Part shown: piece after piece, positions 1,642 to 64,000 of the stretch | Position numbering within the stretch: position 1 is the stretch's first letter | Layout: every line of letters begins with the position of its first letter | Source of the DNA: Letharia columbiana | Lineage: Eukaryota > Ascomycota > Lecanoromycetes > Lecanorales > Parmeliaceae | Reading direction: 5' to 3' | Length of the DNA stretch: 64,000 nt | Assembly: GCF_014066305.1 (NCBI RefSeq) | Contig: NW_023501043.1 | Location: 1,240,001 to 1,304,000, forward strand | Notes under the pieces: generated by a model | Database searches by the model: none | What the model was told of the DNA's origin: nothing | Seen by the model: only the letters and a program-made list of their open reading frames with translations | Position numbers and translations under genes: made by a program

Positions 1642-2394
1642 TCAAGCATCTTTGAGAAAGTTCTTGTAGAGCTGCATCAATCCAAAGTCATCATTCTTTC
1701 GCACCGAAATCCCAGTGATCGAACCATTTGTCCACCCGGGTGTGCCGATACCGAACGATAAATCACCCTCCCTCTGACATGAATCGAAGTCGATAATGAT
1801 CGGCACGTCCTCCTTGTCCAGCATGATATTTGCGGGGTTAATATCATTGTGATTCAAACCTAGATCGTGAAGATGATCAAGGCCGTTTTTGACGCCTTTC
1901 AAACATGAACGGAGGTTCAAAGGTCGATTGCTGTCTCTCAAACGGTCTGATAAGGTTTCTTTGTATCTGACGAAGCAAAGACCGGTGACAAGGCCTTCAT
2001 CACGGACGCAGCCTAGATACGAGGCAATATGTGGATGTGGATGACGGCGCAGTATCTCGCACATGTGCGCCTCGTGAAGTAATATTTCGCGAGGTTTAGG
2101 ACCTGTTTCTGAGCCCAATCCGATTAATGAGGGCTTTTTGAGAAATGTGTCATTTGGTAGTGGGTGGGGCGCAAGCGTGAGATGGTCCGTGAATGGAGGC
2201 CAAAGATCTTCTTTTGGAATGGGAATCAGAGGGCAATCGAGTTGTTCGGCGTCGATGTCCAGAGAGATAGTAAATTCGAGTTGACTCTGTGCTTTGAACA
2301 CCTCGGTGCCCTGTGAAAGTACGATAGAATAATGATCGAAGGTCCAGTCATCTCCATCTTCCCTGTAAGCCTGGAGACATTGGATAATCTTCAT
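1642..2394 (-). CDS. Small protein-kinase-like protein
   Basis: This is an intronless 250-residue protein with an ATG start and the core of a eukaryotic protein-kinase fold. The catalytic loop reads HNDINPAN (residues 182-189), with Asp184 as the expected catalytic base and Asn189 for metal binding. The DFG position is DFD (202-204), and GTPGW (217-221) sits where the activation segment ends. A candidate helix-C region is at about 105-115 and a candidate ATP-binding lysine at 86-87. No clear glycine-rich loop is visible, and the C-lobe is short, ending about 45 residues after DFD. It resembles the small orphan kinases common in accessory regions of ascomycete genomes, whose substrates are unknown. 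With HND for HRD and DFD for DFG, activity is uncertain; it may be a pseudokinase or a truncated paralogue. The frame is clean, with no RIP-type stops. Confidence 0.75.
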   Translation of the reverse strand: MKIIQCLQAYREDGDDWTFDHYSIVLSQGTEVFKAQSQLEFTISLDIDAEQLDCPLIPIPKEDLWPPFTDHLTLAPHPLPNDTFLKKPSLIGLGSETGPKPREILLHEAHMCEILRRHPHPHIASYLGCVRDEGLVTGLCFVRYKETLSDRLRDSNRPLNLRSCLKGVKNGLDHLHDLGLNHNDINPANIMLDKEDVPIIIDFDSCQREGDLSFGIGTPGWTNGSITGISVRKNDDFGLMQLYKNFLKDA

Positions 2395-29589: not shown

Positions 29590-31538
29590 CAAGTAAAGGC
29601 CCATGAATTAAATTCATGGAGTTGGATTTTTCTAAGTCAAATCGAACTCTAATCGCTTACTGTACGTTTTTGACCTACATACAGGCATATATGTACGGAG
29701 AGAGGCGCGCTAAGGCCTAATTAGGAAGGTGTATCGAGTGTGGAGGATTGATCCGTAATAATTGCCTACAAAAAACAGAGAAAGGCCATGTCCTTATGGC
29801 AAGAAGTATCGAAATACCGGAAAGAAATGGAGACAACATGCCAATTAGTGGTGTGAATCCCACATTATCTCCTGCCGCAGTGAAATCTTTCGAATAATGA
29901 AATAGCTGTCAGAGCAAGACATCGGACGGTTTCAATTCGTCCAAATATGCATCGTTCCGGAGTGATGATTTGATGTGGAACCGTGGAGAGCATATGAGGT
30001 GGGATCTTGGAGAGCTGAGCCGTGTTCTTGACGATGGTGGCCTTGTTGCCGCTTAGTTTCTCCGCAGTGTTCTCCGCATTTGCCTGTTGTAGTTCCTCCT
30101 CTTGCTCCTCAATGCAGTGGGGATGATAGGCCAAGTTGCAGTGGTATTCTCCGCTTGCTAAGTGATGATTTGATGTAGAACCGTGGAGAGCATATGATGT
30201 GGGATTTTGGAGAGCTGAGCCGTGTTCTTGGTGCTGGGGGCCTTGTTGCCGCTTGGTTTCTCCGCAGTGTTCTCCATAGTGTTCTCCGCAGTGTTCTCCG
30301 CATTTGCCTGTTGTAGTTCCTCCTCTTACTTCTTGATGTAGTGGGGATGATAGGCTAAGTTGCAGTGGTGTTCTCCGCTTGTTGAGTGATGATTTGATAT
30401 GGAACCGTGGAGAGCATATGACGTGGGATCTTGGAGAGCTGAGCCGTGTTCTTGGTGCTGGGGGCCTTGTTGCCGCTTGGTTTCTCCGCAGTGTTCTCCA
30501 TTTTCTCCGCAGTGTTCTCCGCATTTGCCTGTTGTAGTTCCTCCTCTTACTCTCTTGATGTAGTGGGGATGATAGGCTAAGTTGCAGTGGTGTTCTCCGC
30601 TTGTTGAGTGATGATTTGATATGGAACCGTGGAGAGCATATGACGTGGGATCTTGGAGAGCTGAGCCGTGTTCTTGACGATGGTGGCCTTGTTGCCGCTT
30701 GGTTTCTCCGCAGTGTTCTCCGCATTTGCCTGTTGTAGTTCCTCCTCTTACTCCTTAATGTAGTGGGGATGACAGGCCAAGTTACAGTGGTGTTCTCCGC
30801 TTGCTGAGTGATGATTTGATGTGGAATCGTGGAGAGCATATGACGTCCGGACGCGTTTGGTATGACTACAATATTTGAATATTAGTTTAACCCACCTACC
30901 GCTGGCTTGGGAAGAGTATGTAGGGGAGGACGTATCCGTTCGGGCTCTTTTTGAGGGCCTTCCAACGCGTTTATGAGCAGTAGTAGGTAGCTGTTAGGCT
31001 CGCTTGCGGCCTCGATTGCCAGCAGTAGCGGATTCGTCGAGGGGTGGCTTGGGGGCGTCAGTAAGGGGCTCTAATTGGGCGAGGGGTACCGAAGACGATT
31101 GTGTTTATATTGGTGGAATTGATAGAATTGGTAGAATTGGTAGAATTGGTAGAATAATGGAAGAATAACAAACAGGTGGAAGGATTATTATCCGATCCCG
31201 GACGCGTCTGGTGTGACTACCATGACTACCATATTTGAATGTTCATTTAATTCACCAATAGTAGGCCAAACTTCATAATTTTTACAGCGTTAGAAAGCGC
31301 AAAGCGAGCTCTACAATTTACCAAATTATGAAGAAACAGTATCCGTAGGGAGCTGGTTATTTCAGAGGATAAGACTTCTGCACATAGATTTTTGTAGATT
31401 TTTGATGGTTGCGGACGCTAATTTATTTACCCGCGGTGTCTAACCAAAAAGCGTAGACCTGACGAATTTATGATTGGCTGCACATACAAATTCAAGGTTT
31501 TCTAGTTCAGCCCTACCTTATTCTTTTATATATACTGA
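29590..31538 (-). mobile_element. Helitron-like element, full-length copy (1949 bp)
   Basis: On the minus strand it runs from TCAGTATATATAAAAGAATAAG (31538 downward) to a hairpin CCATGAATT-T-AATTCATGG and GCCTTTACTTG ending at 29590. The flanking A and T leave no target duplication. Inside, in order: the 'tttggttagac' block, a TTCTACCAA minisatellite (about 31105-31160), the array of roughly 200-bp repeats (29960-30845), then a unique 3' block (29600-29950). That 3' block is shared with the BIR-LTR element ('gacatcggacggtttcaatt', 'gccatgtccttatggcaaga'). No replicase or helicase. It is almost free of RIP damage. Confidence 0.75.
29960..30845 (-). repeat. Array of roughly 200-bp repeats, 4-5 units
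   Basis: Each unit (minus strand) contains GAGGAGGAACTACAACAGGC, 'aatgcggagaacactgcgg', 'ggcaacaaggcc', 'aacacggctcagctctcc', 'cacatcaaatcatcactca' and 'ggagaacaccactgcaac'. Translated in the frame used by the BIR ORF it reads QQANAENTAEKPSGNKA. Unit lengths vary from about 200 to 222 by gain or loss of a 15-bp 'gagaacactgcg' sub-unit, and the frame changes between units, so this array no longer encodes a protein. The long open frame 29865-30839 is a patchwork of all three frames. Confidence 0.85.
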
Positions 31539-32063
31539 TATTATCTAGATCTAACTCTACTTCGTTAAAATCTCGTCTTAAAGCGAGATAATATTAAGCG
31601 TTTAAAATCTTTTCTTATCTCCCTTCGTTACGTAGCGTATCTAGATATTAAGAAATAATTTAAGTTTTAGAAATTAAATCTTAATTTAGAAGAATAGTTA
31701 GCTAGAAGTTTTATATTATATAAGATATTTATTATTTAAAAAGATAAGAGTAATAAGAGATTTTTTATAGTTTAAAATAGTTATTAATTAATATATATAA
31801 AAGAATAAAATAAACTTAAGTTAAAAAAAAGTTAATTTATATATATAATTAAATATAAGTTTAATATTTTTACGCTCTTTTATTATATCGACTAAGTTAG
31901 CTCGCTAGCCCTCTCGAGATCTCTTATTAAAAAATAGATATACGTTATTTATAAATAGAATAAGTTTTATATTTCTATTAAATTTTTAATTTTTTTTAAA
32001 TTATAATACGTATTTTACGCTTTTTAACGATTTAAAGATTTTGAAATTAAGTCTTATAATTAT
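31539..32063 (+). mobile_element. AT-rich flank and RIP-mutated Helitron-like 5' part
   Basis: From about 31788 the sequence 'tatatataaaagaataaaat' starts a RIP-mutated Helitron-like copy on the plus strand. It continues through 'aagttagctcgctagccct' and the 'gattttgaaattaagtcttataattat' part of the 209-bp unit. It is then cut by the small TIR element at 32064 and resumes after 33666. The part before 31788 is unassigned AT-rich DNA. Confidence 0.55.
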
Positions 32064-32284
32064 AGTAGCCGAAAAGGTATAATATTTGATATGGGATTTA
32101 GGCAATTTTCGAGATATCATTCCAAAAGATATAAGATATTTTCAATCCCACTCGGTATTCTATATATATATTACCGTATTTTAAAATCGTCCCGTATAGA
32201 ATAGACTAGTCTTATTATAGAGCTTTAAGAATTATAAAATTCTATAAATAGAATATAAAGATATAAATTTTCAAATAAAAGAGG

Positions 32285-32425
32285 TGTTAAGGAATCATTA
32301 TGATTTGACTCATATATGTGTGTGGTGTAAAAGATGTTGAGTATCTATGTAGTCTGCAGGCAGATATGTGCGGTGCCAAGCCTACGCTAGTGGCCCTATG
32401 AGTATCCCTGAGGCATCTCATGACA
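32285..32425 (-). repeat. 3' LTR of the BIR element (141 bp)
   Basis: Begins TGTTAAGGAATC and ends CATCTCATGACA on the plus strand; the inverted ends TGT...ACA are canonical. It is identical to the right LTR except at four sites. The adjoining interior on the minus strand is T-rich and shows no clear polypurine tract, which is odd for an LTR element. Confidence 0.93.
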
Positions 32426-32762
32426 ATTGCCCACAAAAAACAGAGAAATGCCATGTCCTCATGGCAAGAAGTATGCATGCATGATTTTTCGAAAAACCGG
32501 AAAGGAGTGGAGACACCGTGCTAATTAGTGGTGTGCATCCCACGAAATCTCCTGCTGGAATGAAAACTTTTGAATAGTACCGGAGCAAGACATCGGACGG
32601 TTTCAATTCGTCCAAATATGTATCGTCCAATCTTCCTCCTGCAGTGGCCTAATTGGCTGTGATCGTCGCAGTAGATCCTTCTCTTGTATCGTCAACTCAA
32701 TGATATGCCATATCAATACGATATCGCCGAGGCACGCAGAGATAGCAGGCCAAATTGTAGTG

Positions 32763-33290
32763 TCATTCTCCGCTTGCTGAGTGGCGATTTGACGGGGGGA
32801 TTGTGGAGAGGTAAGCCGTGTTCTTGACGATGGTGGCCTTGTTGCCGCTTGGTTTCTCCGCCGTGTTCTCCGCCGTGTTCTCCGCAGTATTCTCCGCATT
32901 TGCCTGTTGTAGTTCCTCCTCTTGTAGAGTATCAGACTGAGTGGCTGACTGAGTGGATGACTGAGTGGCTTGCTGAGTAGCTGACTGAGTGACTGGCTGT
33001 AGAGACCTTCTCGTATATTGCTGGCGAGTCTTCTGATTCCGGTGCTTCTTCTTCTGCTGTGTTGCACGGACGAATGGACACTCCGGTGATCGAGTAGCGT
33101 GGAAATCGAATGGATTATCACTATCCCAGTCACAAGGATCAAGACCGCATAGTGAGCACACCGTTAGATCCGGGGATGGAAAAGTAGGGTCGAATTCTCG
33201 ATGAAAGCCAGCACGGGCTACGTCAGAGGCACTTGGATATACGTGTGGCCATGACGTGAATGAGGCAAGTCTTGCAGCGTATGAGTTCAT
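32763..33290 (-). CDS. BIR-domain protein carried by LTR element
   Basis: A 175-residue ORF with an ATG start, 182 bases inside the 5' LTR. Residues 7-74 match a single BIR domain: RLASFTSWP at the N-terminal helix, ARAGF (25-29), then the zinc ligands Cys45, Cys48, His64 and Cys71, with Trp55 and DNP (58-60) at their expected places. The Cys-to-His spacing is 15, one less than usual. BIR domains bind proteins in cell-division (Bir1/survivin type) and apoptosis control. Residues 76-120 are basic then Gln/Ser/Thr-rich (SATQ repeats), and the tail has three NTAE repeats of the kind expanded in the Helitron-like arrays. The frame ends at 32763; downstream the sequence can be read on in other frames to LDELKPSDVLL, so the original protein was probably longer. 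Function in this context is unknown. Confidence 0.8.
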   Translation of the reverse strand: MNSYAARLASFTSWPHVYPSASDVARAGFHREFDPTFPSPDLTVCSLCGLDPCDWDSDNPFDFHATRSPECPFVRATQQKKKHRNQKTRQQYTRRSLQPVTQSATQQATQSSTQSATQSDTLQEEELQQANAENTAENTAENTAEKPSGNKATIVKNTAYLSTIPPSNRHSASGE

Positions 33291-33454
33291 TGTGATATCG
33301 ACAGGCCTATTGAAAGGATCGATTTGGACGGTGTCAAAAGGTACTCGATGACTGCGAGTGTGTTGGAGGTCCGGCTTGGAGCGTCACACTATTAGGTGTT
33401 GATGTGGGCTTTGCGTAAACGTCTGATGACGCCTGGATATCCTATGAAGTAGGG

Positions 33455-33470
33455 CCAGGTGTTGCTACCA
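33455..33470 (-). promoter_or_regulatory. Primer-binding site of the BIR-LTR element
   Basis: On the minus strand TGGTAGCAACACCTGG lies two bases inside the 5' LTR. It starts with TGG, complementary to the CCA end of a tRNA, which is the standard place and form of a minus-strand primer site. It fixes the element's orientation. Confidence 0.75.
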
Positions 33471-33472
33471 AT

Positions 33473-33613
33473 TGTTAAGGAATCATTATGGTTTGACTCA
33501 TATATGTGTGTGTTGTAAAAGATGTTGATTATCTATGTGGTCTGCAGGCAGATATGTGCGGTGCCAAGCCTACGCTAGTGGCCCTATGAGTATCCCTGAG
33601 GCATCTCATGACA
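33473..33613 (-). repeat. 5' LTR of the BIR element (141 bp)
   Basis: Matches 32285-32425 at 137 of 141 positions; followed by the target duplication AGAGG. Two of the four differences are A/G transitions and two are G/T, so they are ordinary divergence and not mainly RIP. Confidence 0.93.
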
Positions 33614-33666
33614 AGAGGTAAAAGTTAAAAAATTCTAAGTCCAAAAAATATCATACCTTTTCGGCC

Positions 33667-35491: not shown

Positions 35492-37447
35492 CAAGTAAAG
35501 GCCCATGAATTAAATTCATGGAGTTGGATTTTTCCAAGTCAAATCGAATTTTAGCCCTAGCCCTAAGTCAAATCGAACTCTGATCGCTTGCTGTGCGTTT
35601 TTGACCTACTTCCACCACTACAAAATTGATTTAATCTATATAGTATACAGGCACATATATACGGAGAGAGGCGCGCTAAGGCCTAATTAGGAAAGTGTAA
35701 TAATTACTCACAAAAAACAGAGAAAGGCCATGTCCTTATGGCAAGAAGTATCGAAATACCGGAAAGAAATAAAGACAACGTGCTAATTAGTGGTGTGAAT
35801 CCCACAATATCTCCTGCCGCAGTGAAATTTTTCGAATAATGAAATAGCTATAGACATCGGACGGTTTCAATTCGTCCAAATATGCATCGTTCCGGAGTGA
35901 TGATTTGATGTGAAACCGTGGAGAGCATATGACGTGGGATCTTGGAGAGCTGAGCCGTGTTCTTGACGATGGTGGCCTTATTACCGCTTGGTTTCTCCGC
36001 AGTGTTCTCCGCATTTGTCTATTATAGTTCCTCCTCTTACTCCTTAATGTAGTGGGGATAACAGGCTAAGTTGCAGTGGTGTTCTCCGCTTGCTGAGTGA
36101 TGATTTGATGTGGAACCGTGGAGAGCATATGACGTGGGATCTTGGAGAGCTGAGCCGTGTTCTTGGTGCTGGGGGCCTTGTTGCCGCTTGATTTCTCCGC
36201 AGTGTTCTCCATAGTGTTCTCCGCAGTGTTCTCCGCATTTGCCTGTTGTAGTTCCTCCTCTTACTCCTTAATGTAGTGGGGATGACAGGCTAAGTTGCAG
36301 TGGTGTTCTCCGCTTACTGAGTGATGATTTGATGTGGAATCGTGGAGAGCATATGACGTGGGATCTTGGAGAGCTGAGCCGTGTTCTTGGTGCTGGGGGC
36401 CTTGTTGCCGCTTGGTTTCTCCGCAGTGTTCTCCGCATTTGCCTGTTGTAGTTCCTCCTCTTACTTCTTAATGTAGTGGGGATGATAGGCTAAGTTGCAG
36501 TGGTGTTCTCCGCTTATTAAGTGATGATTTGATATAGAACCGTGGAGAGTATATGACGTGGGATCTTGGAGAGCTGAGCCGTGTTCTTGGTGCTGGGGGC
36601 CTTGTTGCCGCTTGGTTTCTCCGTAGTATTCTCCGCATTCGCCTGTTGTACATCCTCCTCTTATTTAACTGAGTGCGAGGGTACCGGAGAGTAAATGTGT
36701 TCATAGGGTGATGAAGAACGGATAGGGGAGGAAGACGCGTCTTAGGAGGTAGCATCGCTGGGTTAAAAGGCACCATCGCTGGCTTAGGAGGAGTATATAG
36801 AGGAGGACGATGGCTGTGAATCCGTTCGGGCTCTTTTTGAGGGCCTTCCAACGCGTTTATGAGTAGTAGTAGGTAGCTGTTGGGCTGCGGCCTCGATTGC
36901 CAGTAGTAGCGGATTCGCGGAGGGGTGGCCTAAGGGCGTCAGTAGGGGCTCTAAGAGGCGGGCAAAAGGGGTGTACGTGCCTGAAACGTTGAGTAACCTT
37001 TAGGCGAGGGGTACCGAAGACGATTATATTCATATTGATGGAATTGGTAGAATTGGTAGAATAGTGGAAGAATAACAAACACACCAACAGGTATTATTAT
37101 TATCCGATCCCGGACGCGTCTGGTGTGACTACCATGACTATCATATTTGAATGTCCATTTAATCCACCAATAGTAGGCCAAACTTCATAATTTTTACAGC
37201 GTTAGAAAGCGCAAAGCGAGCTCTACAATTTGAGGAATTATGAAGTAACTGTATGTATCGCAAGCTGAGTACTTCAAAGTGTAAAACTTCTACATACAAA
37301 TTTTTGATGAGGGAGGCGCGGGAGGGCTACCGGGCTGACTCAGCCGGTCTAACCAAAGGGCGTAGCGAACCCGAATTGATGATTGGCTGCACATACAAAT
37401 TCAAGGTTTTCAAGCTCAGCCCTACCTTATTCTTTTATATATACTGA
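35492..37447 (-). mobile_element. Helitron-like element, full-length copy (1956 bp)
   Basis: Minus-strand start TCAGTATATATAAAAG (37447 downward), end hairpin CCATGAATT-T-AATTCATGG plus GCCTTTACTTG at 35492, with flanking A and T and no duplication. The order is the same as in the copy at 29590, with about four roughly 200-bp repeat units (35888-36660). In the minus direction a proline-rich frame precedes the array (near 36850-36680), and a short TTCTACCAA minisatellite lies at about 37035-37067. Little RIP. A 'gggaggcgcgggagggc' block near 37310 replaces the 'ggttgcggacgctaa' block of the 29590 copy, so at least two subfamilies exist. Confidence 0.75.
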
Positions 37448-37731
37448 TATTATTAAAAAGAGTAAAATTCTTTTTAAATATTTTAAAATATATAATTAAT
37501 AATTTAATATCGTAGCGATTTTATATAGAGATTTTATTTTAAAAAATAAACTTAATTATTTTTAATAATTAAATTAAATTAGATCTTATCGATATATTAT
37601 AATTAAGTAATAATATTAAGAGTAATTTTAAAGTAAAAATAAGCGATAATATTATCTTAAAGAAGAATAAAGGCGATATTAAATAAAATTATAATAATAA
37701 TTATTTTAAATTTATATCGTACTCTTTATAA
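37448..37731. other. AT-rich spacer between two Helitron-like copies
   Basis: RIP-type sequence without recognised content; it separates oppositely oriented copies whose 5' ends face each other. Confidence 0.4.
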
Positions 37732-41975: not shown

Positions 41976-43229
41976 ACGTCCTCCCCTACATACTCCTCCT
42001 AAGCCAGCGATAGGTGGGTTAAACTGACATTCAAATATTGTAGTCACACCAAACGCGTCTGGGATCGGATAATAATCCTTCCACCTATTTGTGTAACCAT
42101 TCTTCTTCCACCATTCTACCAATTCTACCAATTCTACCAATTCTACCAATTCCACCAATATGAACACATTTACCCTCGGTACCCTCGCACTCAGTTGAAC
42201 AAGAGAAGGATCTACAACAGGCGAATGCGGAGAACACTACGGAGAACATTGCGGAGACAGTCATCAGCAGCAGTGACACAACAGGCCTACTCTCCACGGT
42301 CTCACACCAATCCACTCAGCCAGTGCAAGAGAAGTCAATACAGCAGGCGAATGCGGAGAACACTGCGGAGAAACCAAGCGGCAACAAGGCCCCCAGCACC
42401 AAGAACACGGCTCAGCTCTCCAAGATCCCACGTCATATGCTCTCCACGGTTCCACATCAAATCATCACTCAGCAAGCGGAGAACACCACTACAACTTGGC
42501 CTGTCATCCCCACTGCATTGATAACATCGCAAGAGGAGGAACTATAACAGGCAAATGCGGAGAACACTGCGGAGAACAGTACGGAGAACACTGCGGAGAA
42601 ACCAAGCGGCAACAAGGCCCCCAGCACCAAGAACACGGCTCAGCTCTCCAAGATCCCACGTCATATGCTCTCCACGATTCCACATCAAATCATCACTCAG
42701 CAAGCGGGGAACACCACTGCAACTTGGCCTGTCATCCCCACTGCATTGATATGATACATCACTGCAATGAGCACACAAGAGAAGGATCTACTGCGACGAT
42801 CACAGCCAATTGGGCCACTGCAGAAGGAAGTTCGGACGATACATATTTGGACGAATTGAAACCGTCCGATGTCTTGCTCTGACAGCTATTTCATTATTCG
42901 AAAGATTTCACTGCGGCAGGAGATAATGTGGGATTCACACCACTAATTGACATGTTATCTCTATTTCTTTCCGGTATTTTAATACTTCTTGCCATAAGAA
43001 TATGGCCTTTCTCTGTTTTTTTATAGGCAATTATTACGGATCAATCCTCTACACTCGATATACCTTCCTAATTAGGCCTTAGCGCGCCTCTCCGTATATA
43101 TATGTCTATATGTAGGTCAAAAACGCACAGCAAGCGATCAGAGTTCGATTTGACTTAGGGCTAGGGCTAAAATTCGATTTGACTTAGAAAAATCCAACTC
43201 CATGAATTTAATTCGTGGGCCTTTACTTG
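41976..43229 (+). mobile_element. Helitron-like element, 5'-truncated copy
   Basis: Begins abruptly at about 41976 (ACGTCCTCCCCTACATACTC) inside the RIP-mutated Tc1 and keeps the 3' terminus: hairpin CATGAATTTAATTCGTGGG and CCTTTACTTG ending at 43229 before T. It carries the TTCTACCAA minisatellite (42106-42160), about 2.5 roughly 200-bp repeat units (42190-42755), and the 3' block with an open end reading LDELKPSDVLL (to 42882). In the BIR-type frame the part 42195-42547 is open (QQANAENTAEKPSGN). Not RIP-mutated. Confidence 0.7.
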
Positions 43230-47249: not shown

Positions 47250-48187
47250 TTAGTATATATAAAAGAATAAGATAGAGCTAAGCTTGAAAACCTTGAATTT
47301 GTATGTGTAGCCAATCATAAATTTGGGTTCGCTACGCTCTTTGGTTAGACCGGCTAAGTCAGCCCGGTAGCCCTCCCGCGCCTCCCTTGTGAAAAATTTG
47401 TATGGAGATGTTTTACACTTTGAAGTACTCAGCTTGCGATACATATATAATTCCTCAAGTTGTAGAGCTCGCTTTGCGCTTTCTAACGCTGTAAAAGTAA
47501 TGAAGTTTGGCCTACTATTGGTTGGTTAAACTGACATTCAAAGATTGTAGTCACACCAAACGCGTCCGGGATCGGATAATAATCCTTCCACCTGTTTGTA
47601 TAACCATTCTTCTTCCACTATTCTACCACGTCAGCCAGTCACTCAGTCAGCCACTCAGCTAGCCACTCAGTCTAATACTCTACAAGAGGAGGAGCAAGAG
47701 GAGGAACTACAACAGGCAAATGCGGAGAACACTGCGGAGAAACCAAGCGGCAACAAGGCCACCATCGTCAAGAACACGGCTCAGCTCTCCAAGATCCCAC
47801 GTCATATGCTCTCCACGGTTCCACATCAAATCATCACTCAGCAAGCGGAGAACACCACTACATGCATTGATATGGTACATCACTGCAATAACGTCATAAG
47901 AGGAGGATCTACTGCGACGATTATAGTCAATTAGGCCTCTACAGGAGGAACATCGCAAGAGGAGGAACTATAACAGGCAAATGCGGAGAACACTGCGGAG
48001 AACACTACGGAGAACACTGCGGAGAAACCAAGCGGCAACAAGGCCACCATCGTCAAGAACACGGCTCAGCTCTCCAAGATCCCACGTCATATGCTCTCCA
48101 CGGTTCCACATCAAATCATCACTCAGCAAGCGGAGAACACCACTGCAACTTGGCCTGTCATCCCCACTGCATTGATATGGTACATCA
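47250..48187 (+). mobile_element. Helitron-like element, 3'-truncated copy
   Basis: Starts TTAGTATATATAAAAGAATAAG after A47249. It contains the 'gcctcccttgtgaaaa' subfamily block, a shortened minisatellite and two roughly 200-bp repeat units (47690-48180). At 47630-47860 the BIR-type frame is open and includes the SATQ-rich part (QSATQLATQSNTLQEEEQ), otherwise seen only in the BIR-LTR ORF. It is cut at 48188 by the LTR-like end of the gypsy element. Mostly not RIP-mutated. Confidence 0.7.
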
Positions 48188-51100
48188 TGTCAGGGACTCA
48201 ATAGTGTATGTGGTAACTCTATATTGTAGTATAAAGAGAATACTATCTATATAGAATTATTATAAGTATAAGCTTCACAGTAAGATAGAAAGGCTAAAAG
48301 GCCTTAATACGCTAAGCTTAATTAGACTATAATATAAGTAAGATTATAAAATTATTAAAATTATAATATTATCTTCTTCTTTAATTTAAAGCTTCGGCGA
48401 TAACTATTATATAATAGATATTAATCTTATAAAAAGTATATTTAGATATATATAAAGTAATATCCTTAGATATATTAATTTAGTATTTTATTATAAGATT
48501 AAAATCTTTCTATAAATCGATATAGCTACTATAAATTAATAGCGCTAATAGAGAAAATTATTCTAAAGATCTTTTAAATAATAAATAAGAGTTAATGATC
48601 TCGAGATAGTAATAGTAAAAGTCTACTACTAGATTCGAATATTTTATTATATCTATAAATAATTATTAGAATAGATTTTTCTCTATTTTAAGATCTCTAT
48701 ATCTAGTTTTATATATTAGATATTTCCTCTTACTAGTTAAGAAATTATTTTTTTATTTATTTAATTTAAATTAAACTATTTCTTTAATATTATAGATTTT
48801 ATCTTCTTTATTAACGTCGATAGATAATAGCGAGAACTTAATCTATTCTAATAATAAGTTATTATTATTAAGATATAATAGCTATAAATAAAAGATAGAG
48901 TAAATATTATTTATAAAATTAGAAGTTCTAACTCGTAAGCGAAGTTATCTAAAACTTTAATAATTTTAAATAATTCGAAATTCTTATAATTTAGTAATTT
49001 ATTAGAGCGTATAATTTTAATATTTCTTTTATTAAGTATAATTATATCTTTAACTTTAAATTCTAATATTAAAAGTTAATAATAATTAGCTTATTTTTTC
49101 TATAAAGCTTATAATTATTTAAATTAATTTTTTAGATAATTTCTTATAATATCTATCTTCTTAATAAACTTATTAATTAATTTAATATCTCTTCTCGCTT
49201 TTAAATTAGCGAATTAATTTTAAAAGATTAAAGATTTTACTCTTAAGTAAAAAATATATTCTTTGAATAAGGAAATGATAATATATTTAATAGGATATTC
49301 TTATCGAAGTTAGCTTCGAACTTTACTATTAATAATAAATTTATCTAATTATCTTAATTATAATTAATATAAATTTTAAGATATTATTTTAAAATAGCGT
49401 TAGCGTTCTTTATTTATTTATTAGTTTCGAGATAAAATATAATAGAGAGTTTAAGTCTAATTTTAATTCTTTTATATAATTTTCTTTAGAAATATATCGT
49501 AAATTAAATATCTTAATTGAAGATAATAATAAATAAATATTCATTTTCTCGCTATATAAATTTAATAAAAACCTAAATTACTATCTTCACTTCTAAGAAG
49601 TCTAAAAAAATAAATTTCTTCTTCTTACTAAGTCTATTTATAATTATTATAATATATTAATAAAAGTATTTATATTAAAGATAAATAGATAATAATATAA
49701 TAAAGTTAATAAAAATATCTTATTAATACTATTCGAAAATGGAAAGAGATTTAAGTAAACTTTATTTATTCTCTTTATAAGTTTTAAATCTTTTATAGAT
49801 ATAATAGCTCTTAATATATCGAGTAATAAAATTCGTTATTTTTAATTAATAGTAAAGTTTACTTATTCTATCGTAGATTAATAATCTATTAGCGTAGCCT
49901 TTAAGTAAAGAGTTATAAATATCTATAATAATTTTAATTCGTAATTCGAGAATATTCGATATATATAATCTATTATTAATATATAATAATCTATTATAAA
50001 GATAATAATTATCTAATTTTAGCTTAAGATTATTCTTAATTATTTTAAATAATAGTTTTTTCTATCAAAATATCTTTAATTAAATAATTTTTTAAGCGAT
50101 ATTATTATAATTATAAATATCTCTTATTTAATATAATAACTTAGAAGTATTAATAGTAGAGATTTCTCTCGATTCTTCTATAAATTCCTCTTAAGAAGTC
50201 TTTATTAAAGTCTCTAATAGTAATTCTTTATTAGACTTCTTATTATTAATATTATTTTATTTATTTTATTTATATAATATTATAGCTAAAGAAATAATAT
50301 TTTTTTTATATTATTTAGAAATATAATAATAAGATATATAATATTCTTAATATCTTCGTTAAGATTATTATCTTTTAAAATTATATAATATTAATAATAG
50401 ATATAATCGTTATTCTTATTTTTAAATAAATCTTCTATTTATTAAATAAGATTATTAAATTTAATACTTTATTTTTCTAAATAATAAATAATTAAAAAAT
50501 TAAATTTAAAAAAAAACTTCATCTATCTTACTTAGTAAGAATTAAATTATTTAAAAAATATAAAGTATTATAAATTTTTATAATTTAAAATAATATTAAT
50601 AAAATTCTTAATAGAGATATTAATTAATTTAGAATATTATTTTTCGAAGACTTATATTATAGCTATAAGTTTTTTATTATAAATATTATAATTATACTCT
50701 ATAAAAGATATCTTTTTAAAGAGAAATATTATAGATTTAAATATTTTATCTTTATCTTCTTATAATAGAATAATAATAATTATAAAATTAAACGCGTTTA
50801 TTTCTAACTAAGTCTTTTTATTTAAATTAAAATAAATAAATATAAAGATAATAGTAAAAGCTTTCTTAAGCGTTTTAAAAGTAAGTTATTTAAGATATTC
50901 TTAAATCTATAGATAGATAAAGTTTTTCTTCTATTAAATATAGATAAAATTTATTAGAGATATCGCGATTTTAAAGTACTTCGTAATAAACTTTTAATAG
51001 AAATTAGCGAATTCTAAGAATATTTATATATCTTTAATATATCTAGATTTCTTCTATTAAGTAATAGCTTTAATTTTCTTTATATTTATTTTTACTTCTT

Positions 51101-57593: not shown

Positions 57594-59236
57594 TTAAACC
57601 CGATCTTCCAGCAGAGCTCTCTTGGACCTTGCAGCTTCTGCAGGATCGTCATGTCTTCGGTCCTGCTCTAGCGCTATTGGAAGCCAGCAGTTATGCTCCA
57701 GAGCCTGTTCGGCCGACCACCGATCCTGAGGCCTCCATATGAGCAACTTCGAGACCAGGTCGACAAGAGGCTCACCGTCAGTTCCCCTAACGTAGGAATC
57801 ACGTAGAGTCCTGAGAATCGATGCGAGCTGATCCTGCGTGATCTTCGAAAACTCTCGGGCCTTGTAACCTAGGACTTCGGCGATTGCATACCCGTAAGCC
57901 CACGTGTCAATCTTTGCCGTGTAGGGACCATCCCTGGCTACCGTCCAGACTTCAGGCGCTAAAGTGTAGATTGGGCCAATTGTCGTGACTTTGGACGTCT
58001 TTGCTTCGACGGCTTTGCCGTAATCGCAGAGCGCAGCGCGAGGAGGGTCATTAGACATAATGAGCATGTTTTTCGGCCTGATGTCGCGATGCATAATTCC
58101 CATGGCATGTAAAGTCTTGAGGCCTTCGAGTGGTTCTTTGAGAAAGTGTAACTTCGCCGGTCGTGGAATGCTCGTGTTGCCCCAGAATCCTCCCGTGAAA
58201 TCCGAGATTGCGCTGGGCATGAAAAGGAAGAGCCTCTCTAAGACACAGCAGATTTCAGGACGGCCGTGCTCACACATCGCGCTCAAGGTCGGAAGTAAGC
58301 CAGGCTCATTCTGAAGTGTGTCAGGAACATCATATACAAGGCTCTGTATATACATACCGTAAAGCGTGTCCCCATGCTCACCTCTGCTAAAACCTCAGAC
58401 TTATTTCTTGCTTCCATTCGCAGCTCTTTTATAGCCACTAAATCGCCTGTCTTAGTATCGAGTCCCTGGGTGATCCAACCAAATGCGCCTGATCCTCGCG
58501 TTTCGAGTTCAAGGTACCGTCCCCTCAGAACGTAGTTGTCGCCAGGCATCCTCTGCAGTGGTCCTATCTTAAACTGATTGTGCCCTAGTAGTTGTGCTTC
58601 AAGGAACCTGTCCCTTTTCTCAAAGTATGACATCCTGTACTTCTCCGCCACCGTATGCTCCAGCTCATACTCACACATGCCCGCCCGGATCCTTGTCGAG
58701 TGTTCGTATACAAGGTGCTCTTCGTCGTAGTCCAACTTGACCCACTTGCTACCCAATCTATACTCTACTGATGCTTTATGGCTTCCTCCCTTTAACATGA
58801 GAAGTCCAGATTGTCGGTTAAAGTGGAAGATCATATGTACACTAGCAAGCGACATGCTTAGTTGATCACCAGGTTATGATAAAAGGAGGTCTACCCCACG
58901 GTTTGCCGGTGATTTTTTGGTTCCTCGACCCACTCTCCAGCCCAAGTGAGGAAACTCTGGTTCACGTTCTTGATCGAAAGAAAGGACGAAATATGCTGAA
59001 TTTTCCATTTGAAACCCCTCAGTCTCACCTTCGAGCTGGCTATCACAATCGGTGGAACTCTCCACGGGTTCAACTGACGCTACAGGCATTGCACTGCTAA
59101 CAAGATTCCGCTCCAAGAAACGCATATGAAATGTCTTATTCTCTTCGACATAAATATGGGTTGCCGAGAACAAACGTTGTGCAATTTGATTGCGGGGTAT
59201 AAGCCTGGCAAAATCGCCATTGAATGTATCAGCCAT
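57594..59236 (-). pseudogene. FHA-domain protein kinase with one in-frame stop
   Basis: The ATG at 59236 starts an exon to 58382, followed by an intron at 58311-58381 (GTGAGC donor, CCTGACA branch, CAG acceptor, phase 0) and a second exon to the TAA at 57594. Total is about 523 codons. An FHA domain lies around residues 85-170 (GWRVGRG, then SVHMIFHF, both typical of FHA strands), so it should bind phosphothreonine peptides. The kinase follows with RGSGAFG, VAIK (Lys at about 270), HRDIRPKN, DYG for DFG, and LAPEVW. FHA-plus-kinase proteins act in signalling such as the DNA-damage response, though this divergent type is of unknown role. A TAA at 58874-58876 falls inside the FHA domain; CAA with one C-to-T change at CpA would restore reading. 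The remainder is clean, so it is a very recent pseudogene, a truncated gene starting at MSLASVH, or a sequence error. Confidence 0.8.
58311..58381 (-). other. Intron in the FHA-kinase gene (71 nt)
   Basis: Minus strand GTGAGC...CCTGACACACTTCAG. It falls between VLAE and NEPGLL, joins two frames at phase 0 and removes the frame change between the exons. The branch string CTGAC lies about 10 bases from the acceptor, usual for filamentous fungi. Confidence 0.85.
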
Positions 59237-59466: not shown

Positions 59467-62322
59467 CTACATCGCTGGGGCCCTCCCGTCTTGACCGTGT
59501 CCTTCTTTTTGACCGCCCACCCTAGTGAATCCTTGTTGTTGGTCCTCATCAAGGGCTTGATATTGCCCAATAAGCCCAGTACTCCTTATAAAGTCCGCCG
59601 CCATTGAAGCATAGCGTGGTTTTGTTAGCATGTCCTTGTGAGTAATAACCCCCTCTTTCACCTTCCTTCTTTCTTCGGCCCACCACATTCCTCGCTTCTT
59701 GCTGAACAGCCTACATTCGTGAAGGATGTGCCGAGCCGTCTGCTTCGCTCCACACTCGCATTCTTCATCCTCTATATCCGGTACCCATCGGTTGTAAAGA
59801 AAGGCCTTAAGACCTATTTTCTCGGTCCTCATTTGCGTTATCAGCGACGTCTTAGCGCGCTTGACTCTCGAATGCAGAAGTTGTATTTGTTTCGACGGTG
59901 TTGGTTGGATTCTTCTAAGAATACCGCCTCGCTTCTCGTTGGCCCATTCGATAGTCCATTGTTCCATCGCGTGGTCCCTGATAGCTGTCTTAACCGTCGA
60001 TATCATTCTTACCTGTATGACTGACAATTGGGCTGTTTCGTTAGTGTTTACCTCCACTCTTTTGTCATGGACCACTCGCTCTCGCCAGCCAGTGGCCTTC
60101 TTCGCCTCCCTATCCGCCCATTCATTGCCGTCGATACCGATGTGCGCCGGGATCCAGTGTAATTCTGTTGCTACCCCGAGATGCCTTAGCGAATTGATGA
60201 TCTGTACTGCCTGTATCACATAGATCTGCCCCGAGTGCTTGCCCGGGTCTCCGATAGCCTGAATCGATGCTTGATTGTCCGTGTTTACTATGACTCTGCT
60301 GAGTTGTAGCCTTGTTTGGTGCACGACTGCCATAGTTAGAGCTTGAAGAATACCGTGCAGCTCCGCCGAGTACACCGTGTACCAGTCGCTTGAGCCCAAA
60401 TAGACACTGAAAGTAGAACCAATGTCTGACGATACAGCTGAAGCTCCCACCTTTTTATTGATCCCGCTACCGTCTGTGTATATCATTGCATGACCCTCAT
60501 CAATCGATCTTTTGGCCAGTTCTTTGGCGGCTTTCTTGGTCTTATGAATTATCGTTTTGGGAGGCTCCCAGTCGGGAGCGGCGCTGAAAGGGCGTAGTTT
60601 CTCAATCTTATTGGTGTCGCCGTATCGTTCTTCGAATCTATTGGTATGTCGCTCCAGTGGACTCAGTTTCCTGTTCTTCTTGGGTTTTCTTTTGGACTTC
60701 CATCGCTCGAATCGTGGCTTAATAATCTCGCCATATGCTGGACTAGTGGCGATTCGTAAGACAGCTTCCGAGGTGATCTTGTCTAGCTGTTGTTTAACTG
60801 GTAGGAGGTGCGCTTCTATATCGAGTGCTGGAATGGATGTGGCCTTGAATGCTCCAGTTATCTTCCTCTCTGCCTGAGATTGAATCCTTTGTAGCGATGA
60901 GAGGTGAATTTTGTTGTGGCCGGCAGTGTCTTCGGGCTGGTACCATGCTGAGCAGCAGTACGTCATTTGTGGGATAATTACTGCCTGATAGAGCTGTCTC
61001 ATGCTCTTATAGTTGCCACCCCACGTCGATCCGGCAATCCTCGCCAGTGCACCGATGCTTTTGGTAGCCTTAGACCGAATCTCCTTGTTGTGGTGACTCC
61101 ATAGAGGTTTAGAGTCGATTTCGACCCCTAGGTAGCGGACAAAGCGTCTCGCCTCAATGCATTGCCTCTCGTTGAGTTGCAGGGGATGGTCTAAGCTGAA
61201 TCTCTGTTTTCTACTGAGGTGCAGCAGTTGATATTTGCTGGGATCAAACTCCGATCCGTGTCGTAACGCCCACTTCATACAAACTTCGTCGTGGATTTTG
61301 CGGAGGGCGTTACAGTTTTCCTCGGTGGAGTCTCCCACTGTCAGAAGGCCTATGTCGTCTACGAAGCCGGTGGCTACCGTTCCTAAGTCGGCGCGACTGT
61401 TACATTCATCAATGAGATCTGAGTTGTAGAAGAGGTAAAGTATGGGCGACAGCGGTGATCCTTGAGGAATTCCGGTTGCTATGGGAGTCTTTGGTGTGGA
61501 GTGTTCGCTTGTTTTCAGCACTGTTGTCCTATTGGACAAGAACGATTCTACCCAGTTAACTACTCTCGTGTCGATTTTTCGCTTTCGGAGGTTGTGGAGC
61601 AGTCGAGGATGAGAGACTTTATCATATGCACCTGAAACGTCTAGCAGTAACATCGTGGCTACTTTGTCAGAGTTCCAGGCCTGATATATCCTTTCTAGAA
61701 GGTAGTGGATGCCGTGTTCACATGACCGCAATCTACGGCCTCCCATATGTGTGGCCGGCAGGAGTCCATGTGTCTCCGCAAGATATGCTATTCTCCTAGC
61801 AAGAATAAACTCCATTGCCTTTCCTATGGTGTTAAGTAGAGCTATTGGCCGGTATCCTTTAGGAATCGAGTGGTCCTTGCCCGGCTTCGGAAGGACAATT
61901 GTTATCGATGTTCTAAAGTGCTCTGGGCAGTAGCCGTTCGTCATGCATGCATTGAATATTCTATGTAGATGAGGGAGTAACGGCTCCAGGATCTCCTTGA
62001 GAATCAGGTTGGGGATCGCGTCTCCCCCCGGGGCTCTCTTTGACGGTGCTTGCGTTATGGCCTTTCTTATCTCATTCACGGTGATCGTGCCCATCAGGTA
62101 GGCTTGTGGGTACGCCGTGTCGACGCTGATGTCATCTAACTCCGCCTGTACCGGTGGTGGGAAGAACGTTCTCATAAGAAGATCTGCCTTCGGGCCTGGT
62201 TCGTTGTATTCTCGTTTATCTTTGTCAAATAGCGGAGGGAGACACGCCTGTGTTGTAAGTTGTTTTCTGGCCCACTTGGTCTTTTTCCACATCATTTGCG
62301 GCGACTCGCACGCCTCTGCCAC
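59467..62322 (-). CDS. LINE ORF2, reverse transcriptase and RNase H part
   Basis: A 951-residue open frame without internal stops. Order: a linker; reverse transcriptase with GYRPIALLNTIGK, LLDVSGAYDKV, GIPQGSPLSPILY and the catalytic FVDDIG (F-DD variant of Y-DD); then a thumb region. A complete RNase H follows: TDGS, AELHG, TDNQ and EWADREA hold its four acidic residues. Near the end CECGAKQTARHILHEC is the Cys/His knuckle seen in Tad1 and I-type elements. It makes cDNA on nicked chromosomal DNA. Upstream it is split from the endonuclease by the 59-bp duplication; removing one unit puts both parts in one frame, about 1,330 residues, the normal size for this clade. Confidence 0.9.
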   Translation of the reverse strand: MAEACESPQMMWKKTKWARKQLTTQACLPPLFDKDKREYNEPGPKADLLMRTFFPPPVQAELDDISVDTAYPQAYLMGTITVNEIRKAITQAPSKRAPGGDAIPNLILKEILEPLLPHLHRIFNACMTNGYCPEHFRTSITIVLPKPGKDHSIPKGYRPIALLNTIGKAMEFILARRIAYLAETHGLLPATHMGGRRLRSCEHGIHYLLERIYQAWNSDKVATMLLLDVSGAYDKVSHPRLLHNLRKRKIDTRVVNWVESFLSNRTTVLKTSEHSTPKTPIATGIPQGSPLSPILYLFYNSDLIDECNSRADLGTVATGFVDDIGLLTVGDSTEENCNALRKIHDEVCMKWALRHGSEFDPSKYQLLHLSRKQRFSLDHPLQLNERQCIEARRFVRYLGVEIDSKPLWSHHNKEIRSKATKSIGALARIAGSTWGGNYKSMRQLYQAVIIPQMTYCCSAWYQPEDTAGHNKIHLSSLQRIQSQAERKITGAFKATSIPALDIEAHLLPVKQQLDKITSEAVLRIATSPAYGEIIKPRFERWKSKRKPKKNRKLSPLERHTNRFEERYGDTNKIEKLRPFSAAPDWEPPKTIIHKTKKAAKELAKRSIDEGHAMIYTDGSGINKKVGASAVSSDIGSTFSVYLGSSDWYTVYSAELHGILQALTMAVVHQTRLQLSRVIVNTDNQASIQAIGDPGKHSGQIYVIQAVQIINSLRHLGVATELHWIPAHIGIDGNEWADREAKKATGWRERVVHDKRVEVNTNETAQLSVIQVRMISTVKTAIRDHAMEQWTIEWANEKRGGILRRIQPTPSKQIQLLHSRVKRAKTSLITQMRTEKIGLKAFLYNRWVPDIEDEECECGAKQTARHILHECRLFSKKRGMWWAEERRKVKEGVITHKDMLTKPRYASMAADFIRSTGLIGQYQALDEDQQQGFTRVGGQKEGHGQDGRAPAM

Positions 62323-62357
62323 GAACTCTCTGAACGCCTTCCTGGTAGTTCTCTTGA

Positions 62358-63470
62358 TCAGGTTGTTTTTGAAGTTCTTGGCGACTTTATACTCATCCCA
62401 TGCTTCCTCCGAGAGCGTCGTTCGTTTTTGAAGTTCTTGGCGACTTTATACTCATCCCATGCTTCCTCCGAGAGCGTCGTTCTCCAGCTTCTTTTCAGCG
62501 ATTTGCAACGCCTTTGTGCTTCCTTGCATTCTGGCGTGAATCCCGGTCTAGACCGTGGCGACAACCTGATGACCGGAGTGGACTCCTCTATGGCCGCTTG
62601 GATAGAGTCAATAATGGCCGCTACTTGATGATCGATGCCATCGTTAGTGAGGTTTTCACCATTCCCCTGGGGATTGGCTAGGCACTCTTTCGATGCCATG
62701 GCTCTAGCGAGTGTCTCTCTCAGGACCTCGGCGTCCAGTTTGTTGAAGTTTCGGCGTGTCGTTGGTGCTAACTCCATCACGGCCAGCTCAAGCTTTGTGA
62801 GAATTGGGAGGTGGTCGGATCCGCTTTCGAAATCATTTCCGATATTGCAGTTAATGACATTTGCTGTTAGTGCTGGAGTGGCGAATAGTAGGTCTATTGT
62901 TGTTTGACAGTTTTCTTCGTATGTCACCGTTTCTACTGGCAATGCTTGTTCCATGGCGAATTCTTCCGCTATGAGTATTAGTTCTTCTGCTCTCTCATCG
63001 ATACGAGCATCCGGTCCCCCCCACATCGTGTGGTGAAGGTTGAAGTCGCCTAGCATGATCTGTTCGTCATCCTTAGACTCCACAAGCGTCTCATGTAGTT
63101 CGTCAAGTCCGTCTATTTGTTGGTCGCCGGGGTTGTAGATGTTGTGTATGCGTATAATTCTATTGTTTTCGGACTTGATGTTAAGAGTGCAGAGGTCCGG
63201 TGAGTGATATGATGGGTACCATTGCTTTGGTGATATTCTCTTGTTGATATAGAAGCACACTCGTGTGTTGTTATGGTAGGGGTAGATCAAGTTGAATCTA
63301 TCCTTCAGGGGATGATACGACGTGTTTGTGTTGGTGTTTCTCCAGGGCTCCTGAATTGCTACTATATCGATGTCATAGATCTTTTCGTTATCGAAGAGTT
63401 CTACCATGACCGTTCTGGATTTCCTTGTGTTGTATTGCAGTATTGATAGCTGACTGGGGTGTGCTACCAT
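62358..63470 (-). CDS. LINE ORF2, APE-type endonuclease part
   Basis: Starts at the ATG 63468-63470 and has all landmarks of the apurinic-like endonuclease of LINEs: LQYN, AIQEPW (catalytic Glu), YNPGD, LGDFNLHH and SGSDHLPI (the Asp/His pair). It nicks target DNA to prime reverse transcription. The frame runs correctly to about 62424, then enters the second copy of the duplication and ends at 62358 with about 20 out-of-frame residues (RRKHGMSIKSPRTSKTT). The start overlaps the ORF1 stop in ATGGTAG, so ORF2 is probably translated by reinitiation. Confidence 0.88.
   Translation of the reverse strand: MVAHPSQLSILQYNTRKSRTVMVELFDNEKIYDIDIVAIQEPWRNTNTNTSYHPLKDRFNLIYPYHNNTRVCFYINKRISPKQWYPSYHSPDLCTLNIKSENNRIIRIHNIYNPGDQQIDGLDELHETLVESKDDEQIMLGDFNLHHTMWGGPDARIDERAEELILIAEEFAMEQALPVETVTYEENCQTTIDLLFATPALTANVINCNIGNDFESGSDHLPILTKLELAVMELAPTTRRNFNKLDAEVLRETLARAMASKECLANPQGNGENLTNDGIDHQVAAIIDSIQAAIEESTPVIRLSPRSRPGFTPECKEAQRRCKSLKRSWRTTLSEEAWDEYKVAKNFKNERRSRRKHGMSIKSPRTSKTT
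62365..62482. repeat. 59-bp perfect tandem duplication in LINE ORF2
   Basis: Bases 62365-62423 are repeated exactly at 62424-62482 (starts GTTTTTGAAGTTCTTGGCG). Because 59 is not a multiple of three it shifts the frame between endonuclease and reverse transcriptase. No difference has accumulated between the two copies, so it is very recent or an assembly artefact. Confidence 0.95.
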
Positions 63471-64000
63471 TTCTCGGTGTTATTGTTAGTGTTGCTTACT
63501 CGCTCCGCCCAGTCCATAGAGTCCGCATCCCCTTCCTGAGTGTTCTCCTTTTCTTGGTCGTCGATGGACCGGATATGTCTCTTTTTGTTCCCATTGACGG
63601 GGACCGCAATTCTCTCATTGCCACTCTTTTGACTTAGGGGCTGTCTGTCGTCCTCGGGGTTGTTAATTTCCCCTGCCGCTATACCGTCCTCATATCGTTT
63701 GGCTTCGTCTACTGCTTTGGAGGGCGATCTGTTTCTAGGCGAGGCCCTTGTTGGTGATGTGGAAGCATACCTCCTTCCACTCGGCTGGAGATTCGGTGTA
63801 GTAGTTCTTTCGAGGTCCGGCCCTCTGATTCCTCCCCTGCTGACTATCCTACCTCTGCCTGCTGGCCCACCGCGCGTGGATGCCAGCCTCGGGAAAAATT
63901 CCTCATTTCGCCCACGATTGGACGCATTCTGAAAGTAGTTGCTTGATTGATCGCTTGTTTGGTAGCTAGCCGGTGCCTCCTTCGTTGTCACGAATCGTGA
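63464..64000 (-). CDS. LINE ORF1 (nucleic-acid-binding protein), C-terminal part
   Basis: Open from the window edge to the TAG at 63464; the true start lies outside, and the GTG at 63991 is not a convincing start. The visible 178 residues are hydrophilic. A Gly/Arg-rich stretch (RGGPAGRGRIVSRGGIRG) resembles RNA-binding RGG segments, followed by Ser/Pro-rich and then acidic sequence ending TNNNTEKW. LINE ORF1 proteins coat the element's RNA. No zinc knuckle is visible in this part. Stop and ORF2 start overlap (ATGGTAG). Confidence 0.8.
   Translation of the reverse strand, partial: SRFVTTKEAPASYQTSDQSSNYFQNASNRGRNEEFFPRLASTRGGPAGRGRIVSRGGIRGPDLERTTTPNLQPSGRRYASTSPTRASPRNRSPSKAVDEAKRYEDGIAAGEINNPEDDRQPLSQKSGNERIAVPVNGNKKRHIRSIDDQEKENTQEGDADSMDWAERVSNTNNNTEKW

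Follow-up and report, generated by a model that had tools for sequence, protein, structure and literature searches.

A BIR domain as a constrained, putatively captured and exchanged module in a non-autonomous LTR retrotransposon family of Letharia

Introduction

Small LTR retrotransposons that depend on a helper have been sorted largely by what they encode. TRIM elements are described as shorter than 2 kb, with LTRs and without pol (PMC6022998, PMC6934838), and under the published classification rule they carry no domain (PMC6022998). TR-GAG elements, which the same source describes for plants, are non-autonomous LTR elements with one coding region, gag, the remaining functions being supplied by a helper (PMC6022998). 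Descriptions of known gene-capturing elements include gene capture, template switching and, in rice, negative selection. IAP-like sequence within genomic repeats has been reported from shrimp, either as a long repeat that includes a WSSV-related segment or as a repeat resembling a gene, and the account of these repeats describes no LTR element (PMC3124438).

Here, we analyse an LTR element of Letharia columbiana that lies in a 64,000-nucleotide stretch of genomic DNA, hereafter the window. The element shares with TRIMs its small size, its LTRs and the absence of a pol-like ORF, but it encodes a constrained protein; because its ORF is both coding and constrained, TRIM, the size class without a host gene to which the initial annotation had likened it, is the wrong class and was rejected. 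TR-GAG was likewise rejected, the gene of the window copy being a BIR gene and gag-like sequence occurring instead in two related elements (C19 and C3:977k). The window element nonetheless works like a TR-GAG with its gene replaced: both are non-autonomous, with LTRs and one coding region, and a BIR or another module stands where TR-GAG has gag. It has IAP-like sequence within a genomic repeat in common with the shrimp repeats, and gene capture, probable template switching and negative selection in common with the known gene-capturing elements, from which its family differs in that the N-terminal part of one ORF is exchanged, the captured domain is a BIR and the host is a fungus. The ORF has the BIR zinc-ligand residues and fold of Bir1, survivin and other BIR proteins, but it sets a single BIR in a retroelement ORF. 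A Bir1 orthologue was rejected, since there is one BIR and not two and since this BIR groups with a single-BIR gene and not with the Bir1-like locus, represented by a 51-aa exon piece. Literature searches found no paper on a BIR in fungal LTR elements, and we regard the element as a new variant among non-autonomous LTR elements.

Results

A complete LTR element with a single BIR gene

The structure proposed in the initial annotation, namely 141-bp LTRs with TG/CA ends, an AGAGG duplication, a tRNA-type primer site and a single 175-residue ORF, was confirmed (Table 1). The two LTRs differ at 4 of 141 positions, and neither the ORF list nor Pfam revealed a pol-like ORF in the 1.3 kb of the element. 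When the flanks were joined with one AGAGG, 178 of 201 positions matched locus L048 across the junction, and L048 is, on this alignment, the paralogous empty site of the insertion. The conserved stretch GTGGGCAAT would make a weak polypurine tract of putative function.

The reading of the ORF as a BIR protein was borne out by a match to the Pfam profile PF00653 (E 4.7e-10; 40.3 bits against a cut-off of 22.9), by the C-C-H-C zinc-ligand residues and by a BIR fold in the fold test. The basic segment is predicted to be mostly a single helix (residues 72-97), and a comparable segment occurs in the proteins P0009, P0103 and P0130, each time behind a different module. At about residue 166 the window ORF departs from the frame of its sister copies.

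Table 1. Features of the BIR-carrying element, numbered from the first nucleotide of the window
Feature	Position	Strand	Basis or remark
Complete LTR retroelement	32285..33613	-	1,329 bp, in Letharia columbiana (lichen-forming ascomycete, Parmeliaceae), contig C8
Target-site duplication AGAGG, left	32280..32284	.	Sequence; empty paralogous site
3' LTR	32285..32425	-	141 bp, TG...CA
T-run and GTGGGCAAT preceding the 3' LTR, polypurine-tract position	32426..32445	-	Sequence; similar in C19 element
Remaining tail-coding region (other frame in window copy) and 3' untranslated part	32446..32762	-	
175-residue ORF: BIR, basic segment and low-complexity tail	32763..33290	-	
BIR domain, residues 7-74	33069..33272	-	Pfam; genome search; fold
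Basic segment, residues 72-98, end of the exchangeable module	32997..33077	-	
Leader, primer site to start codon	33291..33454	-	Common to other-module copies and C19 gag-like element
Primer-binding site TGGTAGCAACACCTGG, 16 nt	33455..33470	-	Complementary to initiator tRNA-Met 3' end and CCA
5' LTR	33473..33613	-	141 bp
Target-site duplication AGAGG, right	33614..33618	.	Sequence

Around the element, G+C drops to 9-26% in many 2-kb blocks; low-G+C DNA of this kind is as found after repeat-induced point mutation (RIP). Elsewhere in the window, long ORFs at 59467-63991 (-) resemble the reverse transcriptase and endonuclease of non-LTR elements, with a reverse transcriptase (RT) match above cut-off at 61117-61890 (C8:1301117-1301890), and ORFs at 1642-2394 (-) and 57594-58355 (-) look kinase-like by eye.

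An initiator tRNA-Met gene lies at C10, and its final 13 nt, with CCA added, give the primer site when read as the reverse complement. The 18-base pattern formed by AT and the primer site has 11 exact places in the genome and 7 with one mismatch, its reversed control none. The tRNA gene itself (C10:345717-345944, +; loci L083 and L082) lies in four pieces, interrupted by three introns (50, 49 and 57 bp) that have spliceosome-like GT..AG borders and sit at unusual places, and ARAGORN calls it only once all three are removed; a literature search gave no title on a four-piece initiator tRNA-Met gene. Its anticodon-arm word GGGCTCATAACCC has two exact matches in the genome, C10 alone being in a tRNA context, in a search that would miss genes with an intron inside the word. 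A related primer-site-like word, ATGATAGCAACACCGG, stands in a repeat-like stretch of contig C8 (L084, C8:908129 region).

A dispersed family with interchangeable modules

The search of the 52.2-Mb genome for further copies of the LTR revealed a dispersed multicopy family with LTR-flanked BIR copies: 119 candidates were obtained, and all 40 that were scored were positive. Fourteen pairs with both LTRs in one locus formed the set for family analysis. Thirteen of them have a 5-bp target duplication (12 by script, C48 by inspection), C8_548k having none, and the paired LTRs show no difference in two cases and one in four, with a maximum of nine (C126). BIR is carried by 11 pairs, module B by two (C28 and C72) and module C by one (C91), while a fifteenth pair (C3:976609-978419) and the sister element C19 have a gag-like gene in place of these modules. 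The BIR is free of stops in seven of the 11 BIR copies and contains stops in four. Among the matches listed, other BIR copies are found at C9 and C44 (2 stops each) and at C57, C32, C45 and C130 (12-19 stops), C6 has a partial BIR copy, C27 is a short, more distant match, and most others are tail-only. The Pfam BIR profile scored above cut-off at 17 places in the genome, 11 of which are element copies. Dozens of Letharia 'hypothetical proteins' match the window ORF, many through the tail only and some being BIR elements themselves; in named species, BIR-element proteins come from L. columbiana and L. lupina only.

Relative to the window element, locus L044 (C57:53159-53659 plus flanks) shows 390 C>T/G>A changes, 0 reverse transitions and 7 transversions, as counted from three overlapping alignments with LTR stretches counted repeatedly; by this pattern L044 is a nearly full-length copy wrecked in a RIP-like manner. 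The window also holds composite repeats in which the element's tail region occurs as units of roughly 200-285 bp, at 29600-31600 (-), 35500-37500 (-), 42000-43200 (+) and 47600-48200 (+). Three of these, read by eye, end in a partial C19-type LTR, with no paired LTR seen, and the genome holds many further tail matches.

In blastn, the window copy aligns with C72, C91 and C28 only as far as the start codon, element position 326, and then again from 615-620, and the bases preceding the ATG are alike across the BIR, B and C elements and the C19 gag-like element. In a comparison of seven copies by segment, module B reached 97.3% between C28 and C72, whereas the tail of C28 was 97.1% to the BIR copy C52 and 88.1% to C72, and the leader of C72 was 97.2% to the window copy and 86.6% to C28. 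Leader, module and tail thus have different nearest relatives, and therefore modules are, to judge from these identities, exchanged among members of the family. Template switching is probably the route; such switching between co-packaged RNAs has been reported in Veju TRIMs and in BARE elements (PMC13317346).

The same arrangement recurs in unnamed ENA proteins, in which a single tail type stands behind BIR (P0009), module C (P0103) and module B (P0130), with tail identities of 66% over 119 positions for P0103 and 66% over 118 for P0130. P0103 and the C91 protein (P0048) share 39% over 132 positions, partly of low complexity. Outside Letharia, a module B protein is known from a named species, Alectoria sarmentosa (P0112), and its end resembles, by eye, the tail type of P0009, P0103 and P0130. 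Module B is predicted to be a helical hairpin with no clear relative, and no host source of it was found.

The BIR is constrained and the tail weakly so

Selection on the BIR was examined over up to 83 codons in nine copies (36 pairs), or in 28 pairs when the decayed copy C126 was removed. Without C126, pooled pN was 0.030 and pS 0.154 over the 28 pairs, which share branches and are not independent. Ratios of single pairs ranged from 0.04 to 0.60 without C126 and from 0.36 to 0.86 with it, one pair having no differences. We also compared amino-acid replacements with a null in which the same base changes are placed at random, RIP context being ignored. Among four chosen copies without a stop in the BIR, the BIR had 1-7 amino-acid changes against random-placement means of 5.9-14.3, lower in all six pairs (fraction <=0.0035 of 2,000). 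The tail, compared in an overlapping set of elements, had 16-21 changes against 21.6-26.4 expected; the fractions ranged over 0.005-0.474 in its seven pairs and were below 0.05 in five of them. The one pair available for module B had 2 changes against 4.1 expected (fraction 0.065). We conclude from the aligned copies that the BIR part is under strong purifying selection across copies and that the tail is weakly constrained.

A gag-like sister and a candidate helper

C19 is a 1.9-kb LTR element with the duplication ATAAC (by eye). It matches the BIR element at 91% over 278 positions, from the LTR end through the primer site to the leader, and at 79% over 377 positions at the 3' end. Its ORF is broken by stops and is not a BIR, yet has the same leader and ATG context as the BIR elements. 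One piece of this ORF without stops has a match at C3:977404-978066 (64%, 8 stops), within the pair C3:976609-978419, whose LTRs belong to the same family as those of the BIR element. The piece is also weakly like the starts of two long frames, at C3:1387014 (28%, E 1e-8) and C18:357652 (24%, E 9e-5), with lengths of 2,335 and 2,197 aa; on each of these strands a frame of that same length holds a listed RT match. A third match, to C116:118119 (23%, E 6e-7), has RT about 2 kb further on in another frame. We call the C19 ORF gag-like because of these weak matches to the starts of RT-associated long frames; the pieces of C19 gave no gag domain in a Pfam search. In a single comparison involving low-complexity sequence, the gag-like N-terminus was weakly similar to the tail-bearing protein P0061 (29% over 75 aa, E 8e-5).

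Upstream of the 2,335-aa frame on C3 stands AATGGTAGCAACACC, after a CA, which corresponds to 13 nt of the element's primer site. The RT-bearing LTR element at C3:1385.7k, a Ty3/gypsy-type candidate, is thus a possible helper of the BIR element; no LTR-length match was found between it and the C19 element.

Origin of the BIR

BIR proteins, which the initial annotation had taken to be normally single-copy, have matches at four places besides the element copies (C25:552k, C25:181k, C69:47.9k and C1:2096k). We read C25:552k as Bir1-like, and the BIR stretch at C1:2096k contains a stop. Locus L062 (C25:181455-181886) is a two-BIR ORF in which, by eye, a stretch resembling a C2H2 zinc finger comes after the BIRs. 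C69:47.9k encodes a single BIR (P0081, HO173_011276) in an uninterrupted, intronless ORF, and it is this gene, not the Bir1 named for comparison in the initial annotation, that is the nearest genomic BIR outside the element copies (49% over residues 3-82). Since it is intronless, intron loss is uninformative on capture.

In a BIR tree of 22 rows and 74 columns, with the host Bir1-like locus entered as its exon piece, ten element BIRs are united in a single clade (86/86), joined next by P0081 and one unnamed-protein BIR (82/84); the direction from host to element depends on the deepest split, with 61/77. Capture from the lineage of the single-BIR host gene is the better reading of this tree. 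As both Letharia species carry the element BIR, capture would predate their split or the element passed between them. The idea of a host BIR gene captured and mobilised by a non-autonomous retroelement is well supported, by the profile match, the LTR-flanked copies and the host-gene relation; of the outcomes held at the outset to speak against it, namely no BIR profile match, a unique ORF or no relation to a host BIR, none occurred.

Discussion

We consider it highly probable, on the sequence evidence, that the element is a non-autonomous LTR retrotransposon whose single gene joins a captured BIR to an element-specific tail, the BIR being a constrained and exchanged cassette and the missing functions probably coming from a helper in trans. 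During reverse transcription, a template switch would have put a BIR of the single-BIR lineage in the place of a gag-like gene, either before L. columbiana and L. lupina separated or with later transfer between them, and chimeras would since have been made and remade by template switching between co-packaged RNAs. The candidate Ty3/gypsy-type helper, using the same tRNA primer, would copy and integrate the element RNA. Least certain is the part of the protein. BIRs bind free N-termini, including that of histone H3, and in a putative element-serving protein the BIR would be a protein- or chromatin-binding head and the basic helix an RNA- or particle-binding part; with these two parts, the protein might conceivably act as the element's own adaptor.

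Several other readings were weighed. A BIR transduced by chance and functionless for the element would accord with the stops in four of the 11 BIR copies, with the lost tail frame of the window copy and with the captured gene sequences reported in numbers in plant LTR elements (PMC13317346). We find it improbable: BIR replacements fall well under random expectation in each of the six pairs, the tail lies closer to expectation than the BIR in a set of elements that overlaps the BIR set, and L. lupina too has BIR-carrying proteins. The modules could also have been captured independently by element lineages that are old and separate, with no ongoing exchange, and module B is old, being present in Letharia, Alectoria and many unnamed proteins; we give little credence to this account, against which stand the differing nearest relatives of leader, module and tail inside one genome at 97% identity. 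The reverse of capture, domestication of the host single-BIR gene from such an element, might be suspected from the uninterrupted ORF of that gene and from its being the nearest genomic BIR outside the element copies, but its relatives P0086 and P0088-P0090 share its C-terminus (like DWVELGF..EEKDDWVKV) and branch outside the element clade, with weak deep splits, and we judge domestication very improbable.

It is rather unlikely that the BIR targets the host, putatively as a decoy or as a regulator affecting Bir1, division or cell death, and that the constraint reflects such an effect. The retained ligand residues and fold would suit such a role, as would the description of Botrytis Bir1 as anti-apoptotic (PMC3158057). 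On the other side, Bir1 is not the nearest host gene, and other members of the family have no BIR; an effect on a BIR pathway is therefore not needed for spread. Capture of a BIR by the element remains the preferred reading. A wider idea, which we hold as possible although doubtful, is of a modular, effector-like family in which a fixed RNA chassis (LTRs, initiator-tRNA primer site, leader and tail) has its protein head repeatedly swapped. If true, the heads would be host-interaction domains, the BIR being the one that is recognisable, and each would be kept functional for targeting, packaging or survival of the element in its host.

Captured genes in transposons are often taken as accidents. 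In this fungal mini-element the captured domain is selectively maintained across copies, is present in two Letharia species and forms part of a reshuffled cassette, and what an element gains from a host domain becomes testable. The finding also bears on annotation, the 'hypothetical proteins' of Letharia including both BIR elements and tail-only matches. The gag-like, BIR, B and C elements together form a natural series in which to ask what a non-autonomous element gains from the module that it carries.
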